A stretch of 23,192 bases of DNA from a virus. Under the pieces are notes generated by a model. That model saw only the letters and a list, made by a program, of their open reading frames with translations, was not told where the DNA came from and did no database searches. This document shows positions 12,632 to 22,413 of this stretch, in pieces. The stretch is from positions 1-23,192 of the IMG/VR virus record IMGVR_UViG_3300020457_000103. The stretch is one strand, 5' to 3'. The translations under genes and the position numbers were made by a program. Each line of letters starts with the position of its first letter. Within the stretch, counting starts at the first letter, position 1.

Positions 12632-15076
12632 ATGGCAATACAAAGAGTGCATCAAAATAGTTTTACCCGTGGAGAGGTTGACGAAACTGTTGTAAGTCGT
12701 ACAGATGTACAAGCCTTCCAACAAGCACTTAGAAGAGGAAGAAATATCTTTTGTCTAAATCAAGGTGCAATGGAAAGACGCCAAGGTACTTTGTATAGAG
12801 CAGATTTAAATGAAGAAACTAGGTTAGAAGCATTTATATTTAATGAGAATCAAGAATATGTACTAGCTTTTCAAAATACTAAATTACTTATATTTTCTAC
12901 AAACGGCACATTATTAGGCACATTAACAGGTTGCCCTTGGACTACTTCTAATTTATTTGAATTTACATTTACACAATCTGCAGACACAATGATTGTTGCA
13001 CATACAGCATTCAGACCACAGTTAATTGTAAGAACAGGAGCAACAACATTTACTAAAGCAGATTTTCAATTCGCAACAAACTTTAATGATACAGAAATAT
13101 TTCAACCATATTTTAAATTTGCAGATTCTAATATTACTTTAGATATAGATCAAACAACAGCACAAACGAATGTAAACTTAGTAACAAGTGTTGCTTATTG
13201 GGACTCAACTATGGTTGGTAATATTATACGATATCACAAATCAGAGATAGAAGTTACAGCAGTAACAGATAGTACAAATGCTGTAGGTACTTTACGAAAA
13301 GATGTACGAATAGAACTTGATGATGATCCAATGAAATCTGAACAAGGAACAGCTAAAATAATTGTTTTGCATCCACAACACGGATTTTCTACAGGTGCAT
13401 CAATTACTATAGAAGGTGCAGAAAGTATTTTAAATGATTCTGGTTCAGGTCTTACAGCAACAAATATAAATGGTACATTTACAATAACTGTTCTTGATGA
13501 CGATCGTTATGAATATACAGCTACAAGTGGTACAGCAGGAGATTCTCAAGATGGTGGTGGTACAAATGTTAGAATTATAGGACATCCACCTACCAAACAA
13601 TGGGATGAAGAAGTATATAATACACATAATGGCTTTCCAACAGCAGTAAGGTTTCATCAGCAAAGACTTTTTTTTGCAGGTGGATCTATAAGTGATTTTA
13701 TTTGTGGTAGTCAAACAGCAGACTTTTTTCACTTTGGTTTAGGGGATGGTGATGATACAGACGCTATCCAAATAAATATTGCATCAGACCAAGTAAATAG
13801 AATACAACATTTAATTTCTGGTAAACATTTAGAAATTTTTACAACAACAGGTGAATTTTATTTAAAACCTCAAGTAGGTAAACCAATTACACCGACAGAT
13901 TTACAAGTATTAAAACAAAGTGATCTTGGTTCGCAACTTAAATGTATGCCAAGATTATTTGATGGTGCGGCAATCTTTGTTCAACCGAATGGTAAAACAG
14001 TAAGAGAATATTTTTATAATACTGCTAATGAAGAATATACACCTACAGCATTATCTATACTTTCACCACAAGCTGTAAGTAGTCCTACTGACTCTGCAAT
14101 AATAAAATCATCCGGAATAAGAACAGAAATGTTTATGTTGTTTGTAAATGACAATGGAACAATAGGAGTGTTTTCTGCAAATAGACAAGAAAAATTATCA
14201 GGTTGGGTAATATGGGAAACAGATGGTGATTATATATCTGTAGGTGCAACAACACAATTTATGTATGCTGTAGTTAAACGAACAATAAATGGTGCTACTA
14301 AATATTATTTAGAGCAATTTTCTAACTCACAATATGAGATACCAACAGATGCTTCTGTATCTAAAGTCTTATCTTCGTCATATCAACCACACGGAACGCC
14401 TTTAGTAAAAGGTGCAGTTACTAGTGCTAATACTGTTATAATAGATGGCTTGACACAAGTACCCAGAGCAGGGGAGCAATTTACCTGTAATTCAATAAGT
14501 TGTACGATACAGAATGTAGCAACAACAAGTACATCAGGTGAATATATAGTTACAGTTGTACCTGCCCTAACAGCATCTGATAATGCACCAATAGAATTTA
14601 CTACCTCTTATACATTTACAGGGTTAAATACTTCACCAGATTTACGGGGTAAAGTAGTACACGCTACATCAGGTACAGGAGAAAATGATACAATAGTTTA
14701 TTATGGCAGTAGTACAGTTGATTCTAATGGTGTTGCTATATTTCAAAAACCTGCATCAGGTATTGATATAGGTATTGATTATACAGTAGATGTTTCTACA
14801 TTATCTATAGATGCAACTTCACCTGTAAGAGGATTAGGTTCAACATACGGATTACCTAGAAAAATAGGAAAAACTATATTAGAATTATCTAAAACACATA
14901 ATTTACAAGTAAACAGTAATGATGTAATTGTAAGCAATGGATTTGAAATGACAGGATATACAGGTAAAAAAGATGTACATAGTTTAGGTTATAGCCAAGA
15001 ACCTTTTATTACGATTACACAATCTGTGCCATTACCTTTCAGAATATTATCTATAACAAGTGAGTATTATTTCTAA
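12632..15076 (+). CDS. Tail tubular protein B / nozzle (T7 gp12-like)
   Basis: Forms the tail nozzle through which DNA leaves. The 814 residues compare with 794 in T7 gp12. The N-terminus is typical: NSFTRGEVDETVVSRTDVQAFQQALRRGRNIFCL with GAMERRQGT (about residues 9-57). The later FHQQRLFFAGG (around 340) and FHFGLGDGDDTDAIQI (about 369-384) are also family hallmarks. Residues about 245-318 look like an extra beta domain (HGFSTGASITIEG ... NGTFTITVLDDDRYEYTA). This pattern is seen in many phage structural proteins and is probably surface exposed. The end overlaps the next gene by one base (TAATG). Confidence 0.92.
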   Translation: MAIQRVHQNSFTRGEVDETVVSRTDVQAFQQALRRGRNIFCLNQGAMERRQGTLYRADLNEETRLEAFIFNENQEYVLAFQNTKLLIFSTNGTLLGTLTGCPWTTSNLFEFTFTQSADTMIVAHTAFRPQLIVRTGATTFTKADFQFATNFNDTEIFQPYFKFADSNITLDIDQTTAQTNVNLVTSVAYWDSTMVGNIIRYHKSEIEVTAVTDSTNAVGTLRKDVRIELDDDPMKSEQGTAKIIVLHPQHGFSTGASITIEGAESILNDSGSGLTATNINGTFTITVLDDDRYEYTATSGTAGDSQDGGGTNVRIIGHPPTKQWDEEVYNTHNGFPTAVRFHQQRLFFAGGSISDFICGSQTADFFHFGLGDGDDTDAIQINIASDQVNRIQHLISGKHLEIFTTTGEFYLKPQVGKPITPTDLQVLKQSDLGSQLKCMPRLFDGAAIFVQPNGKTVREYFYNTANEEYTPTALSILSPQAVSSPTDSAIIKSSGIRTEMFMLFVNDNGTIGVFSANRQEKLSGWVIWETDGDYISVGATTQFMYAVVKRTINGATKYYLEQFSNSQYEIPTDASVSKVLSSSYQPHGTPLVKGAVTSANTVIIDGLTQVPRAGEQFTCNSISCTIQNVATTSTSGEYIVTVVPALTASDNAPIEFTTSYTFTGLNTSPDLRGKVVHATSGTGENDTIVYYGSSTVDSNGVAIFQKPASGIDIGIDYTVDVSTLSIDATSPVRGLGSTYGLPRKIGKTILELSKTHNLQVNSNDVIVSNGFEMTGYTGKKDVHSLGYSQEPFITITQSVPLPFRILSITSEYYF

Positions 15077-15633
15077 TGTGTCCTCCAGCCGCCGCCATTC
15101 CATATATTAGTCTAGCTTTCACAGTTATAAGTGGTGGCTTTCAAGTATATTCTATGATGCAACAAATGAATGCTGATGATACAGCAAATTCATATGAACA
15201 ACAAATGCTAGAAGAAAGGCGTAGGCAACAAGAAGAAGAAGCCAAAGCTAGAGAATTGCAAATGCAAAAAGACTTAAATGATAGAAAAAGAGAAGCACTT
15301 AAACTACACAAATCAAACAGAGCAAGTTTGGCCGCTTCCGGCGCTGAGATAGGTTCACCAAGTTTTACTAACTTTCTGTTAGCTAATAGAGAAGCTGAAG
15401 GGCGAGATCAATCTAATATTACTTTGATGGGTAGAGAGGCACAAGCACAAGCACTTATGGATGCAAGACAAACAGGTATTGCAAAAGACGCTTCGTTATC
15501 AGCTTACAAATCAAGAAGAAAAGCAAGTATATATAGTGGTGTAGCAGGATTAGTTGGTATGGGTGCTAATGTTAATTGGTCAGCGTTTGCACAAGAGGAT
15601 GATGCACCACCACCGAAGAAGGAAGATACATAA
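15076..15633 (+). CDS. Internal virion protein, T7 gp14-like
   Basis: Ejection protein that in T7 inserts in the outer membrane to start the DNA channel. It is 185 residues (T7 gp14 is 196). There is an N-terminal apolar segment (IPYISLAFTVISGGFQVYSM, residues 9-28), then a long Gln/Glu/Arg/Lys coiled coil (about 40-95). Next comes the conserved 'RASLAASGAEIGSPSFTNFL' (about 91-110), typical of this family, and a second mildly apolar Gly/Ala segment (about 155-170). It overlaps both neighbours by one base. Assignment is from the pattern and from order between gp12-like and gp15-like genes. Confidence 0.82.
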   Translation: MCPPAAAIPYISLAFTVISGGFQVYSMMQQMNADDTANSYEQQMLEERRRQQEEEAKARELQMQKDLNDRKREALKLHKSNRASLAASGAEIGSPSFTNFLLANREAEGRDQSNITLMGREAQAQALMDARQTGIAKDASLSAYKSRRKASIYSGVAGLVGMGANVNWSAFAQEDDAPPPKKEDT

Positions 15634-17990
15634 TGGTTAAACGATCCAAGGATATGGTTTCTTATAGAGAACAAATAGGAGTAACTGCTCCTATTGGATA
15701 TCAAACAGCAATACAAAAAACACAAGAATCTGCAGTAGCTTGGGATAAAACCTTTGAAAAAATATCAGATACTTTTACAGCATTACAGAAAAAAACAGAT
15801 CAAATAAGAATGAAAAACGCTGTGCAAAATGCAAAATTTGAAATGGATGAAAAACAAATAACTGATGAAAAGACAGGTGAAGTAAGAACAGTTAAAACAA
15901 TGAAGCCATTTAAAGCAGATAGATTTTTTTGGCAAACAGATCAAGATGATTATGATAAAATGATTGTTGCTAAAATGAAAATGGATCTTGGTTTACAATT
16001 TGAAAAAGAAAGTATGGCACAATTAGAACAATCGTTTAATGCCAATGAAGATGCTAATGGATATGTAAATAGAATGGCTCCAATATTTGAGTCATATAAA
16101 CAAAATTTACCTTCAAAATTCTATGATGTAATACGACCTACTCTTGAAGCACAAATGCTACAAGATCAAAAGAAAGCACAAACTAAATTTAGACAACAAA
16201 AAGAAGAAGAAACAAGTGCTTTTGCAGAACAGTATTTTAGTAAAGCAGAACAACAATTTAAAAGAGATGTGCTAATTGATCCTAGTAGTGCTAAAGACAT
16301 AGCCAATGCATCAATAGCTGAAATACCTGAAAATCTTGTTGGTAGAAGTATTACGGAAAGAGTAAAGTTTCAATCAATGATTAATGGGTTACATAAATTC
16401 TATTCGTCAGAAGTTAGTGGTGTAAACTTACAACAGCTACTTGATCCAACTACACCAAGAAGTCAAACTAGTTTTGGCAGAAAAGAACAAGAAAGCAATT
16501 TAGTAGCTATTCGTGATTTGATTGATGGTAAAGGAGCACAGCAAATAGCATTTGGAGGCAAAGTATCAACTATTAAACAAGAAGATTTTAACAAAGTATT
16601 AGATGGTCTTACTGAAGATGAAGTAGATGCTATTGATTCTAATCTTACCGAGCGATTAGCCAATACATCTGGCTCTAGCGAACTAAGTGAAGCTATAGCA
16701 GGTTTTTCTAATTATACTCAACAAAGACAAGCATCTACAAACTATACTGATCCATTTGTACAAAAAAAAATGACAAGGGTAGCTAAAGATAGTCCTGCAG
16801 AATATTTTCAAATACTTGCACAAAGCTCAAGCAATCCATCTCGTTTAGCTAATTTAACTACATATGACCAAGCTATGAGAACACCAGAGTTTTATGAAGC
16901 ACACGGCAGACTTGGAGCAATGCCTACTGTAATAAAAGATTCTATAGAACAACTTATATTATCAGGTGATGCTGATGTAATACAAGCAATGCTTAATCCT
17001 ATGGTTGCATCAGCAACACGATTATCAGGAACTATGTATAAAGGTAAGTTTATAAGAACAGATAGTTATGAAAAAATGTTTCCTAGCTTATCTGATAAAG
17101 CACATAATATTTTAGAAGGTGTAAGAGTACGATCATTAGTTAATGATAGAATAGATTTTACTACAGTAGCTACTGAATTATCTACAGCATTTGATTCAAA
17201 TATCAAAGATACAAATAATGCTTCTGTTGTTAATAAAGCAGTTGATGATGCAATTAAGCATGTAATTGATAAAACAGGTATTATGTTTGGTGAAGATAAT
17301 TTAGCAACACCATTAAGAAATACTTTAAGAATGTATTTACGAAGTTCTACTATATATGATCCAAATGTTACAACTGAACCAACTAAAGGTTTTAAACAAA
17401 TGGGTATGAAGTTTTATAATACTCTTACTGAAAAAGGTATAATAGGCAAAAGTAATTTTAATTATATGGCAGGAGGTGATGCAGGAGAAAGTGGCGTTGT
17501 ATTATATCCATTAGAGCGACATAAGGTAACCGATCCTAATAATCCTAATAGAATGATAAATGACCATCACGAACCTTATATTATGAATGAAATTAGTAAA
17601 TTTGAAAGATATAAAAATGTTGATAGAAATAAAATGAAACTTGGTAGAGATTTTAGAGTATATCCTGTTAATACTAAAAATATGAATCTAACAGATGATA
17701 CTGCAAATATTTCTTATTATTTATTAGAAATAAATAAAGGCACAGGTGATGCTACACCTGTATTAAAAGATGATGGCACATTTTATTTTTACACACCAAA
17801 TGATGTAAAAGAAAAACTAGATAAAGCTAGAGATCAGGATATAGAAATTGGTATGGTACTTAGTAAAGATATTACACATTATGAATCACTTAATGAAGCT
17901 AATAAACAAAGGATAAGAGAAGCAGAAAACTTTGCAGACAATTATCCAACAACATTTAATGCACTAATTCCTAATTATGGCAAGAATTAA
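15633..17990 (+). CDS. Internal virion protein, T7 gp15-like
   Basis: Ejection protein, expected to form the periplasmic part of the DNA channel with the gp16-like protein. It is 785 residues (T7 gp15 is 747). It is mostly helical and hydrophilic, with no membrane segment or signal peptide. The start VSYREQIGVTAPIGYQTAIQ and the helices that follow (FEKISDTFTALQKKTDQI) resemble the N-termini of these proteins in marine podoviruses. Sequence similarity to T7 itself is not visible by eye; the call rests on size, composition and the conserved gene order. Its last 14 bases overlap the gp16-like gene. Confidence 0.75.
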   Translation: MVKRSKDMVSYREQIGVTAPIGYQTAIQKTQESAVAWDKTFEKISDTFTALQKKTDQIRMKNAVQNAKFEMDEKQITDEKTGEVRTVKTMKPFKADRFFWQTDQDDYDKMIVAKMKMDLGLQFEKESMAQLEQSFNANEDANGYVNRMAPIFESYKQNLPSKFYDVIRPTLEAQMLQDQKKAQTKFRQQKEEETSAFAEQYFSKAEQQFKRDVLIDPSSAKDIANASIAEIPENLVGRSITERVKFQSMINGLHKFYSSEVSGVNLQQLLDPTTPRSQTSFGRKEQESNLVAIRDLIDGKGAQQIAFGGKVSTIKQEDFNKVLDGLTEDEVDAIDSNLTERLANTSGSSELSEAIAGFSNYTQQRQASTNYTDPFVQKKMTRVAKDSPAEYFQILAQSSSNPSRLANLTTYDQAMRTPEFYEAHGRLGAMPTVIKDSIEQLILSGDADVIQAMLNPMVASATRLSGTMYKGKFIRTDSYEKMFPSLSDKAHNILEGVRVRSLVNDRIDFTTVATELSTAFDSNIKDTNNASVVNKAVDDAIKHVIDKTGIMFGEDNLATPLRNTLRMYLRSSTIYDPNVTTEPTKGFKQMGMKFYNTLTEKGIIGKSNFNYMAGGDAGESGVVLYPLERHKVTDPNNPNRMINDHHEPYIMNEISKFERYKNVDRNKMKLGRDFRVYPVNTKNMNLTDDTANISYYLLEINKGTGDATPVLKDDGTFYFYTPNDVKEKLDKARDQDIEIGMVLSKDITHYESLNEANKQRIREAENFADNYPTTFNALIPNYGKN

Positions 17991-20900
17991 TACTACATCA
18001 GTAGATAGTCTTAGTAATAATCAACAAGATTTTTTACGAGCATATAACTATGCACAGCTTAGACGAGTGCCTGTTATGGCTAAAGAAAATAAGTATGTTC
18101 CTAACAATTCTTTCTTTGATGATGTTATGGATCATTATAGTTTGTCTTGGCTTAATCAATGGGCAGAAAGTACATCACCTATAGACCAACAAGTAAGTGA
18201 TGAATACGATCCTAATTATGATGTATTTGCTGACAACTTTGAGCCTTACCTACCTTATATGAAAGAATTTATTGGTATTAAAAATAAAGAACAAGCTGAT
18301 TTTTTAAAACAAAAAATAGATAGAAACAATGCTAGACGAGATAGATTAGAGCAAGCAGGCAGAATACTACCGGGATTTGCGGCGGCGTTTCTTGATCCAA
18401 CTACATACTTACCTATACCTATGGTAGGAGGATTAGGATTTGTTAAAGGTGCAGTACGAGGTGGTGTAGGTGTTGGTGGTATAACAGCATTAACAGAACC
18501 TATACGACACAATTTAGATCCAACTTCTACATTTGAAGAAACAACAGCAATGATTGGATTGAGTGCACTTGCAGGTGGTTTTATCGGAGGAGTAGCAGGT
18601 TCACTTACAGCTAACTTAGGTAGCAAAACTTTAAAGAGTGCATTGCCTAAAGGTACAAAAAAAACATTAGATGACTACGACAAAGAGTTATCTGAAAACG
18701 AAGGTATCAAAGATTATAATCAAGAAGAATTTTATATAAATCCAAAAAAAAATTTTGAAGATGTAACTATAAAATCAAAGCGAGGTAAACAAGCTAGAGA
18801 GCCAGAACCTATTAGAGATGCAATAGATGCAATAGAATATCTTGATCCTAAAGGTTATAAGAGTCTTAGAATTATTGATGGTTATACAGGTAGGCACGAT
18901 AAAAATGGTAGATATAAGAAAGCATTTTATCAAAGAAAAAATAATACAATACGAATAGATAGAGAAGCTATAAAACGAACATTTATAGATTTGCCGTGGA
19001 CTAAACCTACAGTAAAAGGTGTTAAAGCATTACCAAGAGATACATTTAATAATGCAGACGAATGGGCAGATTTTGTTATGTTGCACGAATATTCACATAG
19101 TAAAATAAAACAAAAACCCGGACAGAGCATAGCAGATTATGAAAATGCAATTAATCGTAATGCTATGAAAATACTTGGTAAAATTAAAAAATTTAATAAA
19201 GGTGATGCTATTCGCATAAAATCAGTAAGTGGTATGAAAAGATTTAAAGCACTACCGGGAGAGTCTGTGCCACAGCTAAGAGGAAGAATGCAACAACAAC
19301 GAGAAATAGTAGATCAAACATTTACACAAACAGGTGTACAACAAGCTATAGAAGAAACAGAAACAGCAGGTGTTCGTAGTAATGTAGATGATGTTGTGGC
19401 TAGATATAACAATCTTACTAATGAAGTAGAATTAGATATAGTAAAAGCAAAAGCACAGTTTGAACAAAAAAAACATTTAGAACAACTAAGACAGGTTGGA
19501 GTAACACCACCTGCAAATTTATTTAGAACAGCAGATGATTGGGTTAATTACACAATAAGAAGAGCAATATTTGCTAGTGAAATTATGCCTAAAACACTTA
19601 AAGAATTTAAGGATATGCCTGTAAATGAATATCTTAGCACTCTTAATAAAAGAGTAATTGATGACATTGTTAAAGACAATGTGTCTAAAGGTGCAGAAAC
19701 TAGTGGTATTAAATATTTAAGAATATTAGAAGAAGTACAAAACCTTGGTGGCGTAGTTAATGCTGTAGGTAGAAATGTTAAAAACAAGAAATTAAGAGAA
19801 AGGGTAGCACGAGATATGCTTGAACTATTAGGCGATCACGGAGTTATGACTAAAATGAATAGGGAAGGTTATTCTGCTACACCTGATTCTGTATTATTGC
19901 GAACATTTACTCAATACCAACCAAAACTTAGAGATGCTATATTTGAAATGGAAGATGCTTATTTTGGATATCACGGGATTGCTTCTGATAAAACAGGTGG
20001 ACAAAGAACTATTGCTAGAGGTGTATTAGCTACACAACAATTTGGCTCAAAGGTTAAAAATGCTTTTAATAAAACAAAACAAGGTGAAGTACCACCAGAT
20101 GTAACGCTTAGAGATTATTATAGTATGGTTGGTAGATACATAATGGATGAAGATGTATTACAAGAAACACAAGATATTGCATTGCAAGAAGCTATTAAAA
20201 AAGGATCAATACCATTTAATAGATTAATGAAAGAATTTAATGATATAGCAAGTAGTTTGCAAATGTTTAAATCTCAAAAGAGTTTTCAAATAATGACAAA
20301 AAGGGCAGAACTTACTTTAGCTAAAGCATTAGATATGCAAAGAACAGGTAAGTTTACAGGTGAACAAGCAGAAGCACTTGCTAAAAAAATACAAAACAAA
20401 AGAGAATTTTTAAAATTACAACAAGCTGAAATAGATGTTGTAGCTAACGACTCCTTAACAGCAGGAAAAGAAAAATACTTTACTAGATATTTTAGACACG
20501 ACAAATTAGTAGAAAATGCAGATGAGTTTAAAGCAATATTAAGACGCCATTTTGAAACAACATTACCACAAAAAATAACTGATCCTAAATATCTAAAGCG
20601 TAGAAAACTAGCAGAAAAAAGAAATAAACTTACGGCTAAAGAAAAAATACCTGACGATCTAACAAATAGAGAAAAAATATTAGATGCAGAAGTAGAATAT
20701 CATTACAACCAAATTTTAGAAGGACATTCAAGATGGGGTGATATAGAAGGAATACACGGATATGGTATTGATGTTGATGGTCAATACAAAGTAGGAGCAA
20801 GACAATTACTACAAAGAGAACTTGATATTCCTAACAAAGAACTAAAAGATTTTATAGAACAAGATGCAGAAATTGTTATGCGACAATATGTACAAAGAAT

Positions 20901-22413
20901 GGCACCTGCTTTAGAATTGCATAAAAAATTCGGTGATGTACATTTAACAGAATATTTAGATAATCTTGAATTAGATTTAATAGCAGATAATGTACCACAA
21001 ACAGCAAGACAAAAAATAATTAATGGCTTTAGAGATGGAAAAGATAATTTATTAGGTACGCTTTATTCTGATGATCCAACAACATTAAGCGTACAAATAG
21101 CTAATAGTATTCGTAACCTTGCAAGTTTAGCATTTATGGGAAAAGTTACAATAAGTGCCTTGCCTGAGATAGCTAGACCATTAATGGTAAATGGTTTTCA
21201 TAGAACATATAAGGATGTAATTGGTGCTTATGTAGGAGGTTTAGAAACTATTGGTAAACATTCTAATATTAGTGAGTTAGATCAACTTGTACCTATACTT
21301 GAAGGTGAACTCTCTAGTGCTTCTTCTCGTTTTGTCTTTGACTCTACAGCGCAACAATCAAAAAATTTTGGTGGATATTTTAATAAAGCTGTTGGTCAAT
21401 GGCTTGAACGCCCACAACAAGCATTTTATCAAGCTAACATTCTTACTCCATATACAAGAGGAATTAAAAGAATTGTACGCCGTATGAGTATGCATAGATT
21501 TGTAGAAGATAGTGCAAAACTTGTAGCAGGTAAACTAGATGAAAAAGGCATTGCCCGTCTTGCATCATATGGTATTGATAAAAATGTAGCTAAAGTATTT
21601 AGTCGTATGCCAATAGAAAAAAGTAAAGGAACATATTATTTAAATTCTATGGCGTGGGATGCATTGCCCGGTGGTAAAATGGCAAGACGAAAATTACAAA
21701 GTGCAATATATGCAGATATGAATAGAACTATTGTAACGCCTAGTGCCGCTGATCAAGTAAATATGATGCACGGAGTAATTAGAATTAATGATGAAGGTAT
21801 TGCTGAACTGATGAACAATCCATTATTCAAAGCAATGGGATTCCAAAAAACAGATATGGGTGGTAAAATAAATAATGCTTGGCTTGGTTTATTATTACAG
21901 TTTTATTCTTGGGGAATAAGTGCAAATCGTAAAGTGTTAATAGGTTTAGCACAAGGAAGAGATGGCAAAATGGGACAAGCTATGGCAGGTGTATCTAGTG
22001 CTATAGCATTAGGTATGATGGCAGATTGGGCAAAAAATCCTAGATACTATGAAAACAAAGATTTAGGAGAAAAGATTGTAAGAGGTGTAGAATTGTCTGG
22101 TACAACAGCATTATTAGGTGATGCTAACTTTATGTTAGAAACTACAAGTGGTGGATTTTTTGGAGAATCAATAGGTGCAAGACCATTGTTAGGATTAGAT
22201 CAACGCTTTGGAGATGCTGATGGAGATGATGCAGTTAAAGAAATAATAGGTAGTGGCCCAAGTATGTTATTTGATGTAATAAGTGCATTTTCTAACGACA
22301 CCTTGTCAGATGTTGAAAAAAAGACTATGTTAAGAAAGTTGATACCTTTAAATAATTTTTGGTTATGGGATCAAGCATTTAGAGATTTATATAATGATGT
22401 GGTAATAGAATGA
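17977..22413 (+). CDS. Internal virion protein, T7 gp16-like, with embedded metallopeptidase-like domain
   Basis: Largest ejection protein, 1478 residues (T7 gp16 is 1318). Residues 131-150 (LPGFAAAFLDPTTYLPIPMV) and two Gly/Ala-rich apolar segments (148-172, 191-214) are typical of large inner virion proteins and may enter the membrane. No lytic transglycosylase motif is evident at the N-terminus, where T7 gp16 has one. Instead, residues about 285-400 resemble a zinc metallopeptidase: a strand region NTIRIDREAIKRTF, then EWADFVMLHEYSHSKIKQ with HExxH at 370-374 and a likely third ligand E389 in DYENAINRNA. Long helices and coiled coil fill the rest. Role: channel formation and probably local wall or protein cleavage during entry (inference). 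It overlaps the gp15-like gene by 14 bases and the tail fibre by 4. Confidence 0.85.
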   Translation: MARINTTSVDSLSNNQQDFLRAYNYAQLRRVPVMAKENKYVPNNSFFDDVMDHYSLSWLNQWAESTSPIDQQVSDEYDPNYDVFADNFEPYLPYMKEFIGIKNKEQADFLKQKIDRNNARRDRLEQAGRILPGFAAAFLDPTTYLPIPMVGGLGFVKGAVRGGVGVGGITALTEPIRHNLDPTSTFEETTAMIGLSALAGGFIGGVAGSLTANLGSKTLKSALPKGTKKTLDDYDKELSENEGIKDYNQEEFYINPKKNFEDVTIKSKRGKQAREPEPIRDAIDAIEYLDPKGYKSLRIIDGYTGRHDKNGRYKKAFYQRKNNTIRIDREAIKRTFIDLPWTKPTVKGVKALPRDTFNNADEWADFVMLHEYSHSKIKQKPGQSIADYENAINRNAMKILGKIKKFNKGDAIRIKSVSGMKRFKALPGESVPQLRGRMQQQREIVDQTFTQTGVQQAIEETETAGVRSNVDDVVARYNNLTNEVELDIVKAKAQFEQKKHLEQLRQVGVTPPANLFRTADDWVNYTIRRAIFASEIMPKTLKEFKDMPVNEYLSTLNKRVIDDIVKDNVSKGAETSGIKYLRILEEVQNLGGVVNAVGRNVKNKKLRERVARDMLELLGDHGVMTKMNREGYSATPDSVLLRTFTQYQPKLRDAIFEMEDAYFGYHGIASDKTGGQRTIARGVLATQQFGSKVKNAFNKTKQGEVPPDVTLRDYYSMVGRYIMDEDVLQETQDIALQEAIKKGSIPFNRLMKEFNDIASSLQMFKSQKSFQIMTKRAELTLAKALDMQRTGKFTGEQAEALAKKIQNKREFLKLQQAEIDVVANDSLTAGKEKYFTRYFRHDKLVENADEFKAILRRHFETTLPQKITDPKYLKRRKLAEKRNKLTAKEKIPDDLTNREKILDAEVEYHYNQILEGHSRWGDIEGIHGYGIDVDGQYKVGARQLLQRELDIPNKELKDFIEQDAEIVMRQYVQRMAPALELHKKFGDVHLTEYLDNLELDLIADNVPQTARQKIINGFRDGKDNLLGTLYSDDPTTLSVQIANSIRNLASLAFMGKVTISALPEIARPLMVNGFHRTYKDVIGAYVGGLETIGKHSNISELDQLVPILEGELSSASSRFVFDSTAQQSKNFGGYFNKAVGQWLERPQQAFYQANILTPYTRGIKRIVRRMSMHRFVEDSAKLVAGKLDEKGIARLASYGIDKNVAKVFSRMPIEKSKGTYYLNSMAWDALPGGKMARRKLQSAIYADMNRTIVTPSAADQVNMMHGVIRINDEGIAELMNNPLFKAMGFQKTDMGGKINNAWLGLLLQFYSWGISANRKVLIGLAQGRDGKMGQAMAGVSSAIALGMMADWAKNPRYYENKDLGEKIVRGVELSGTTALLGDANFMLETTSGGFFGESIGARPLLGLDQRFGDADGDDAVKEIIGSGPSMLFDVISAFSNDTLSDVEKKTMLRKLIPLNNFWLWDQAFRDLYNDVVIE

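Follow-up and report, generated by a model that had tools for sequence, protein, structure and literature searches.

A predicted zincin-type metallopeptidase domain carried at one of two sites in gp16-like phage ejection proteins

Results

The gp16-like protein and its gene neighbourhood

The window, i.e. the whole 23,192 nt stretch of IMG/VR virus record IMGVR_UViG_3300020457_000103 that was analysed, encodes a 1478 aa protein. On its 5' side lie genes for portal, T7-type scaffold, gp13, capsid and a gp12-position tail protein, followed by a gp14-like gene and a gp15-position ORF. The genes and protein regions considered here are:

15076..15633, plus strand: gp14-like internal virion protein (phrog_418 E 2e-6; Pfam T7_gp14 E 2e-5, slightly below the family cut-off)
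15633..17990, plus strand: gp15-position internal virion protein, 785 aa, named from position and size only
17977..22413, plus strand: gp16-like ejection (internal virion) protein, 1478 aa (phrog_342 E 3e-46; gene order; link of phrog_342 to T7 gp16)
18112..18630, plus strand: conserved N-terminal module, aa 46-218, rich in Gly and hydrophobic residues (profile shared across the set; T7 gp16 alignment)
20386..22407, plus strand: conserved gp16 core, aa 804-1477 (core profile E 1e-289; phrog_342 positions 601-1051)

The match to phrog_342, a family of internal virion proteins, covers aa 806-1265, and T7 gp16 itself matches this family end to end. The profile match and the gene order gp14-gp15-gp16 are both present for the 1478 aa protein, while the 785 aa ORF in gp15 position gave no significant family match in Pfam or PHROGs. 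Because the phrog_342 match is accompanied by T7-type neighbouring genes, the gp16-like label, already used for the carrier in the initial annotation, is sound.

Domain A and its putative active site

Downstream of the N-terminal module and ahead of the core, the protein contains a domain of about 130 aa, termed domain A, with two conserved motifs:

18811..19209, plus strand: domain A, zincin metallopeptidase-like, aa 279-411, at site 1 (profile E 1e-48; model pLDDT 89.7; zincin neighbours)
19084..19098, plus strand: HEYSH motif, aa 370-374 (read from the sequence; H, E and H invariant in 30 motif-keeping relatives)
19138..19155, plus strand: YENAIN motif, aa 388-393, including E389, on the helix following HExxH (Y, E, N and N invariant in 30 relatives)

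A metallopeptidase-like domain had been proposed earlier at 18830-19180; the region was right and the computed span is slightly wider. HEYSH and E389 (codon at 19141-19143) were found where they had been reported. From composition alone, 0.015 HExxH motifs are expected in this protein. Residues F, H, E, H, Y, E, N and N are invariant across 30 divergent intact domains, a set composed of relatives that keep HExxH. The approximate domain consensus is YVPAFYN..TI.ID..I...F..K.W..P.V.GV.PLP...F.T..EW..FV..HE..H.....ES.A.YENRIN..AL.

E389, invariant and placed on the next helix in the model, is the predicted third metal ligand. The Glu of YEN and the two Asn are still conserved in copies which have lost both His, as in the cultured Pelagibacter phage EXVC031P Hodr, so conservation of E389 may be partly structural in cause. 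The expectation that HExxH is conserved in homologues holds for most of them, and fails in the lineage of Hodr.

Predicted fold and structural neighbours

An AlphaFold2 model of domain A, built with 51 relatives, reached pLDDT 89.7 and pTM 0.81. In model numbering it comprises a helix (13-27), three strands (29-32, 47-50 and 55-58) and helices 60-69, 91-107 and 116-140, with HEYSH (101-105) on helix 91-107 and E389 (120) on helix 116-140. The zincin core fold, an N-terminal helix, a three-stranded sheet and two C-terminal helices, is present in this model, as is the layout of beta-strands and active-site helix described initially.

The structural-neighbour ranking was headed by YbeY (Z 7.8), followed by IrrE (6.9, over 84 aa at 21% identity), SPRTN (6.1), abylysin (selecase/abylysin, 5.9), Wss1 (5.7), lethal factor (5.5) and ArdC (5.3), with an IrrE-type regulator also near the top. 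These top rows are zincin-type metalloenzymes or their relatives, at Z values below 8, which may reflect a shared arrangement. A Foldseek search of the model against PDB returned nothing at E < 0.001 (best E 0.48), and the PPAR-gamma rows among its results are noise. The domain sequence profile had no match among PDB chains. Among predicted structures of viral proteins, five matched at E < 0.001, all of them large phage proteins that are uncharacterised. Domain A very probably has a zincin fold. Conservation in 30 relatives, the model and its zincin neighbours together support the original suggestion of a metallopeptidase-type domain with a putative HExxH...E site.

Family placement

None of the Pfam or NCBIfam models covers the domain, either in the window protein or in representatives. 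Searches with the domain in Pfam, PHROGs and NCBIfam gave only DUF4344, a 'putative metallopeptidase', at E 0.056, and this candidate was rejected. MPTase-PolyVal (PF18818) has no match in the window, in 11 representative proteins or in 33 gp16-like proteins, and for Peptidase_M78 (IrrE/ImmA, PF06114) no match above the family cut-off was obtained in the window protein. In hhalign comparisons, with MPTase-PolyVal and M78 profiles made of bacterial sequences gathered for this analysis, MPTase-PolyVal gave a probability of only 60, with a pairwise E of 8.5e-5 over 49 columns, M78 gave 15, and an unrelated control set 0.1. By sequence and model, domain A is placed in the zincin superfamily, but in no named family.

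The best reading of these comparisons is a superfamily-level relationship with metallopeptidases of "polyvalent" phage proteins, in which metallopeptidase domains are the commonest domain type of the injected members (Iyer et al. 2017, PMC5512222). As in MPTase-PolyVal, a small domain with HExxH and Glu and a layout of a helix, three strands and two helices occurs at varying positions in large injected proteins of phages or plasmids, sometimes in several copies. Unlike MPTase-PolyVal, the domain carries a YEN..N signature in place of an EELVAE-type motif, and its carrier is a T7 gp16-type scaffold. One relative (L046:698-5437), a gp16-like/endolysin-type protein (phrog_7348), bears the domain together with a match to ART-PolyVal, an ADP-ribosyltransferase, which supports the polyvalent reading. 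An embedded metallopeptidase-like domain at varying sites of a large gp16-type protein is itself a polyvalent-type trait, and the window protein fits the class of polyvalent injected proteins, its injection being deduced by homology to T7.

HExxH and a Glu on the next helix are shared with IrrE/ImmA, which are cytoplasmic regulators; unlike them, domain A is embedded, not free-standing. The C1 domain of N4 virion RNA polymerase is likewise an HExxH domain within a giant ejected virion protein (PMC12633501). The carrier scaffold differs there, and the likeness consists of HExxH and context.

Relatives and two insertion sites

With a profile of three domain sequences, 113 relatives were confirmed among IMG/VR contigs, 80 of which were kept; a second domain profile, of intact copies, found 110 relatives, and a whole-protein profile 21 loci. 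Of the 50,697 named phage records searched, only that of Hodr contains a relative supported by tblastn, and none represents the active form of the domain. The gp16-like protein of Hodr (WDQ27578), the closest one from a named phage, is 35-36% identical to that of the window, with scaffold and site 1 in common; unlike the window, it has a single copy, which reads KEVYR at the HEYSH position. The Hodr record (L011, OQ414635.1) bears locus tags of EXVC032PBaldr, and the labels may be mixed up. A match in a Gordonia phage (E 0.2), to a protein without HExxH, looks like chance.

The single match from contigs of bacterial genomes (L115, PAAM01000029.1, 33.5 kb) belongs to a Rhodobiaceae MAG, and its gp16-like protein is nearly identical to that of the window. 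It is probably a phage contig, present in the MAG through a true host link or by mis-binning.

Alignment of the relatives disclosed two positions of the domain. At site 1, used by the window and by all relatives not assigned to site 2, it follows the N-terminal module and precedes the core. At site 2, found in about 50 proteins, the domain interrupts the core after column 410, and the core resumes cleanly at columns 412-418, with less sharp boundaries in a few alignments. The core profile behind these columns was built from site-1 proteins only, in which the domain lies upstream of the core. In the window, the equivalent of site 2 is uninterrupted:

21661..21681, plus strand: uninterrupted site-2 equivalent, aa ~1229-1235 (core-profile columns 410-416 mapped to the window)

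Vibrio phages CKB-S2 and PG9A-1 have the N-terminal module and the core, with both sites empty. The domain is a cassette that occupies one of two alternative sites of the same gp16-type scaffold.

Some site-2 proteins (L058, L167-L169, L172 and L182) have an insert of ~90-120 aa that separates the HExxH helix from that of YEN. A few bearers of the domain belong to other or unrecognised scaffolds (phrog_6651, phrog_7348 and phrog_18427). In two others (L071 and L033), the domain is found in proteins of 2349 and 2499 aa, where the gp16 core was not recognised.

A degenerate second copy and loss of the motif

Comparison with Hodr and with another relative, L009, first revealed a second copy downstream of domain A in the window protein:

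19330..19695, plus strand: domain B, degenerate second copy, aa 452-573 (profile E 5e-29; relation to domain A and to the L009 and Hodr copies; model)

Domain B, which matches the family profile with the E-value given, reads RRAIF at the HExxH position. In its model the order of strands and helices is kept at pLDDT 77, below the confidence of domain A, and among structural neighbours YbeY alone reaches Z 5.

In the window and in L095 the active copy precedes the degenerate one; in L009 it follows it. Hodr and its relatives (L097-L111) have single degenerate copies, and a separate loss of the motif is seen in L089/L091, among active relatives. Since the Hodr copy is devoid of both histidines, catalysis is, as far as sequences indicate, dispensable somewhere. 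In the scaffold tree, the window group, with its active copies, is nested in a clade otherwise made up of degenerate single copies. In the domain tree, these active copies group apart from the degenerate ones, among active copies of distant phages. Several support values in these trees are modest and some rows are long, and it is from them that we infer copy histories. Two histories fit. The lineage of the window may have regained an active copy next to a dead one; alternatively, the tandem pair may be old and several losses may have occurred since.

The two copies were also compared between the window and the Rhodobiaceae MAG contig. Domain B differs by 2 nonsynonymous and 8 synonymous changes, i.e. 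it is strongly conserved at the protein level. Domain A differs by 10 nonsynonymous and 6 synonymous changes against 20/70 elsewhere in the protein (Fisher p 0.002), a contrast drawn from one pair and 16 changes. This is the highest share of amino-acid-changing differences within the protein, as would be expected of a host-facing part.

Position relative to T7 gp16

In the composite T7 gp16 model, residues 1-156 (transglycosylase) and 157-228 are periplasmic, TMH I spans 243-410, residues 411-1118 are in the host cytoplasm, and TMH II spans 1119-1290 (PMC8954989). A joint alignment places aa 46-218 of the window protein at T7 gp16 ~210-412 (TMH I), and the N-terminal module also matches T7 gp16 298-403 directly (E 5e-9). 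In the same alignment site 1 falls at ~487-504 and site 2 at ~1035. As both map within 411-1118, both would be located in the cytoplasmic part; the mapping is a weak, low-identity alignment onto a topology that is itself composite. By homology to T7, a cytoplasmic location of the domain is likely.

The initial annotation saw no lytic transglycosylase in this protein, and rightly so: neither Pfam nor PHROGs gave a transglycosylase match in the 1478 aa, and aa 46 already aligns to T7 ~210, past the end of that enzyme. T7 gp16, with which the window protein shares scaffold family and gene position, thus differs in having an N-terminal transglycosylase and no zincin-like domain; in the window protein, which begins after the transglycosylase part, the domain lies in the part corresponding to gp16-C. 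P22-like ejection proteins also lack an N-terminal lytic transglycosylase (PMC8954989). The accompanying idea that the domain stands in place of the T7 enzyme was dropped, as the domain follows the TMH I match and as Vibrio phage CKB-S2, empty at both sites, is also without the transglycosylase part. An anticorrelation between the domain and a wall hydrolase in gp15/gp16 was rejected as well: almost no protein of the two sets contains such an enzyme in recognisable form, which left nothing to correlate. In CKB-S2, the gp15-position protein (L192:445-2586) is annotated 'lytic transglycosylase', a name without Pfam support. One site-2 gp16-like protein (L041:2083-7071) has an endolysin-type match in its N-terminal extension (phrog_7 E 7e-5, phrog_31077 E 2e-4), and a wall enzyme and the metallopeptidase-like domain can therefore coexist in one protein.

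Discussion

On balance, and by a modest degree of confidence, we favour domain A as a compact zincin passenger of gluzincin type in a gp16-like protein, delivered to the cytoplasm and cutting mostly host protein. The domain would be packaged in the head as part of the gp16-like protein and ejected with it, set, by analogy with T7, in the gp16 part that faces the host cytoplasm. There it would cut protein at the start of infection, a host regulator or defence component being a more probable substrate than the cell wall. Computation establishes the domain with its conserved motifs, its predicted fold, the two alternative sites, the degenerate copy and repeated motif loss; zinc binding, peptidase activity, cytoplasmic location and host-directed action are features we infer. 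Domain A is probably catalytically active in this phage. Given the rest, its action is rather more plausibly directed mainly at the host than at processing of its own protein.

Self-processing is the rival that deserves most attention, and we regard it as unlikely. The domain would cleave gp16 (or gp15/gp14), in cis or in trans, at a stage prior to packaging, inside the head or once ejected, and so prepare or free components of the ejectosome. For metallopeptidases of polyvalent proteins, both the carrier protein itself and host proteins have been suggested as targets, and DdrB of phage P1 undergoes proteolytic processing ahead of packaging (PMC5512222). Such a role would suit a domain lodged in a large virion protein of several parts. 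However, N4 vRNAP, which bears an HExxH domain, is packaged unprocessed (PMC5512222), two distant scaffold positions would be odd for a fixed cleavage geometry, and processing is not generally required, since Hodr, which is cultured, and other lineages are without the motif. Loss of the motif in cultured, infectious Hodr, the two positions and the changes in domain A together point to a role that is conditional and host-facing rather than to obligatory self-processing. As a second rival, the domain could be a structural or binding module within gp16-C that can do without catalysis, contacting protein or DNA, with HExxH as a historical leftover in some lineages. Degenerate copies are indeed kept as folded domains (in the window, L095 and L009, and singly in Hodr-like phages), domain B has low dN relative to dS, and ENxxN is conserved even without HExxH. 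Yet invariance of H, E and H in 30 divergent intact copies is not expected under relaxed catalysis, and the active copies of the window clade sit among those of distant phages in the domain tree, which makes this reading less likely still.

In YbeY, the first structural row (given as tied with IrrE), a third His close behind the second metal-binding one is required. The domain has no conserved His at such a place after HExxH but an invariant Glu on the next helix, and a YbeY-type nuclease was set low for the missing His. Other HExxH metal chemistry in general, including an HExxH-type oxygenase, is very unlikely, although non-peptidase HExxH enzymes exist, as cited in PMC12633501. Least probable of all is a wall peptidase that cuts peptidoglycan cross-links at entry in lieu of the T7 lytic transglycosylase. 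No transglycosylase is recognisable in the gp16-like protein or in gp15-position proteins, which would leave room for such an enzyme, but this absence is not tied to the domain, as the empty-site Vibrio relative also begins past the transglycosylase position. Besides, the domain aligns to the cytoplasmic segment of T7 gp16 and not to 1-156, the best fold matches contain no wall enzyme, and at least one relative combines a lysozyme-/endolysin-type gp16 match with the domain. The mapping of both sites to the segment placed in the cytoplasm speaks against the role in crossing the cell wall that was initially considered.

A wider version of the favoured host-directed reading is offered tentatively, as less probable than not: an undescribed family of metallopeptidase cassettes with two docking sites in the cytoplasm-facing part of gp16-type proteins may hit host proteins, e.g. 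defence regulators, very early in infection, decay to inactive copies in some lineages and, in the lineage of this phage, have been re-acquired beside a dead copy.

HExxH domains in ejected phage proteins are already known. New are a family without a curated model, its two sites in T7 gp16-type proteins and the mixture of active and degenerate forms. New too is its wide occurrence in marine phages, together with the lack of an active copy in any named phage of the collection searched. No paper describing this domain family was found in open-access text.

Ejection proteins of T7 type are usually read as machinery for DNA transfer. Here, the putative cytoplasmic part of gp16 accepts an enzyme-type cassette at two places, one or other of which is occupied in many marine phages. 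The mixture of active, degenerate and duplicated copies constitutes a natural experiment on the need for the protease. In viruses of ocean bacteria, the domain is a candidate for direct tests of an effector protein that enters with the genome, ahead of any phage gene expression, and related marine T7-like phages may bring a finished protease into the cell as infection begins.
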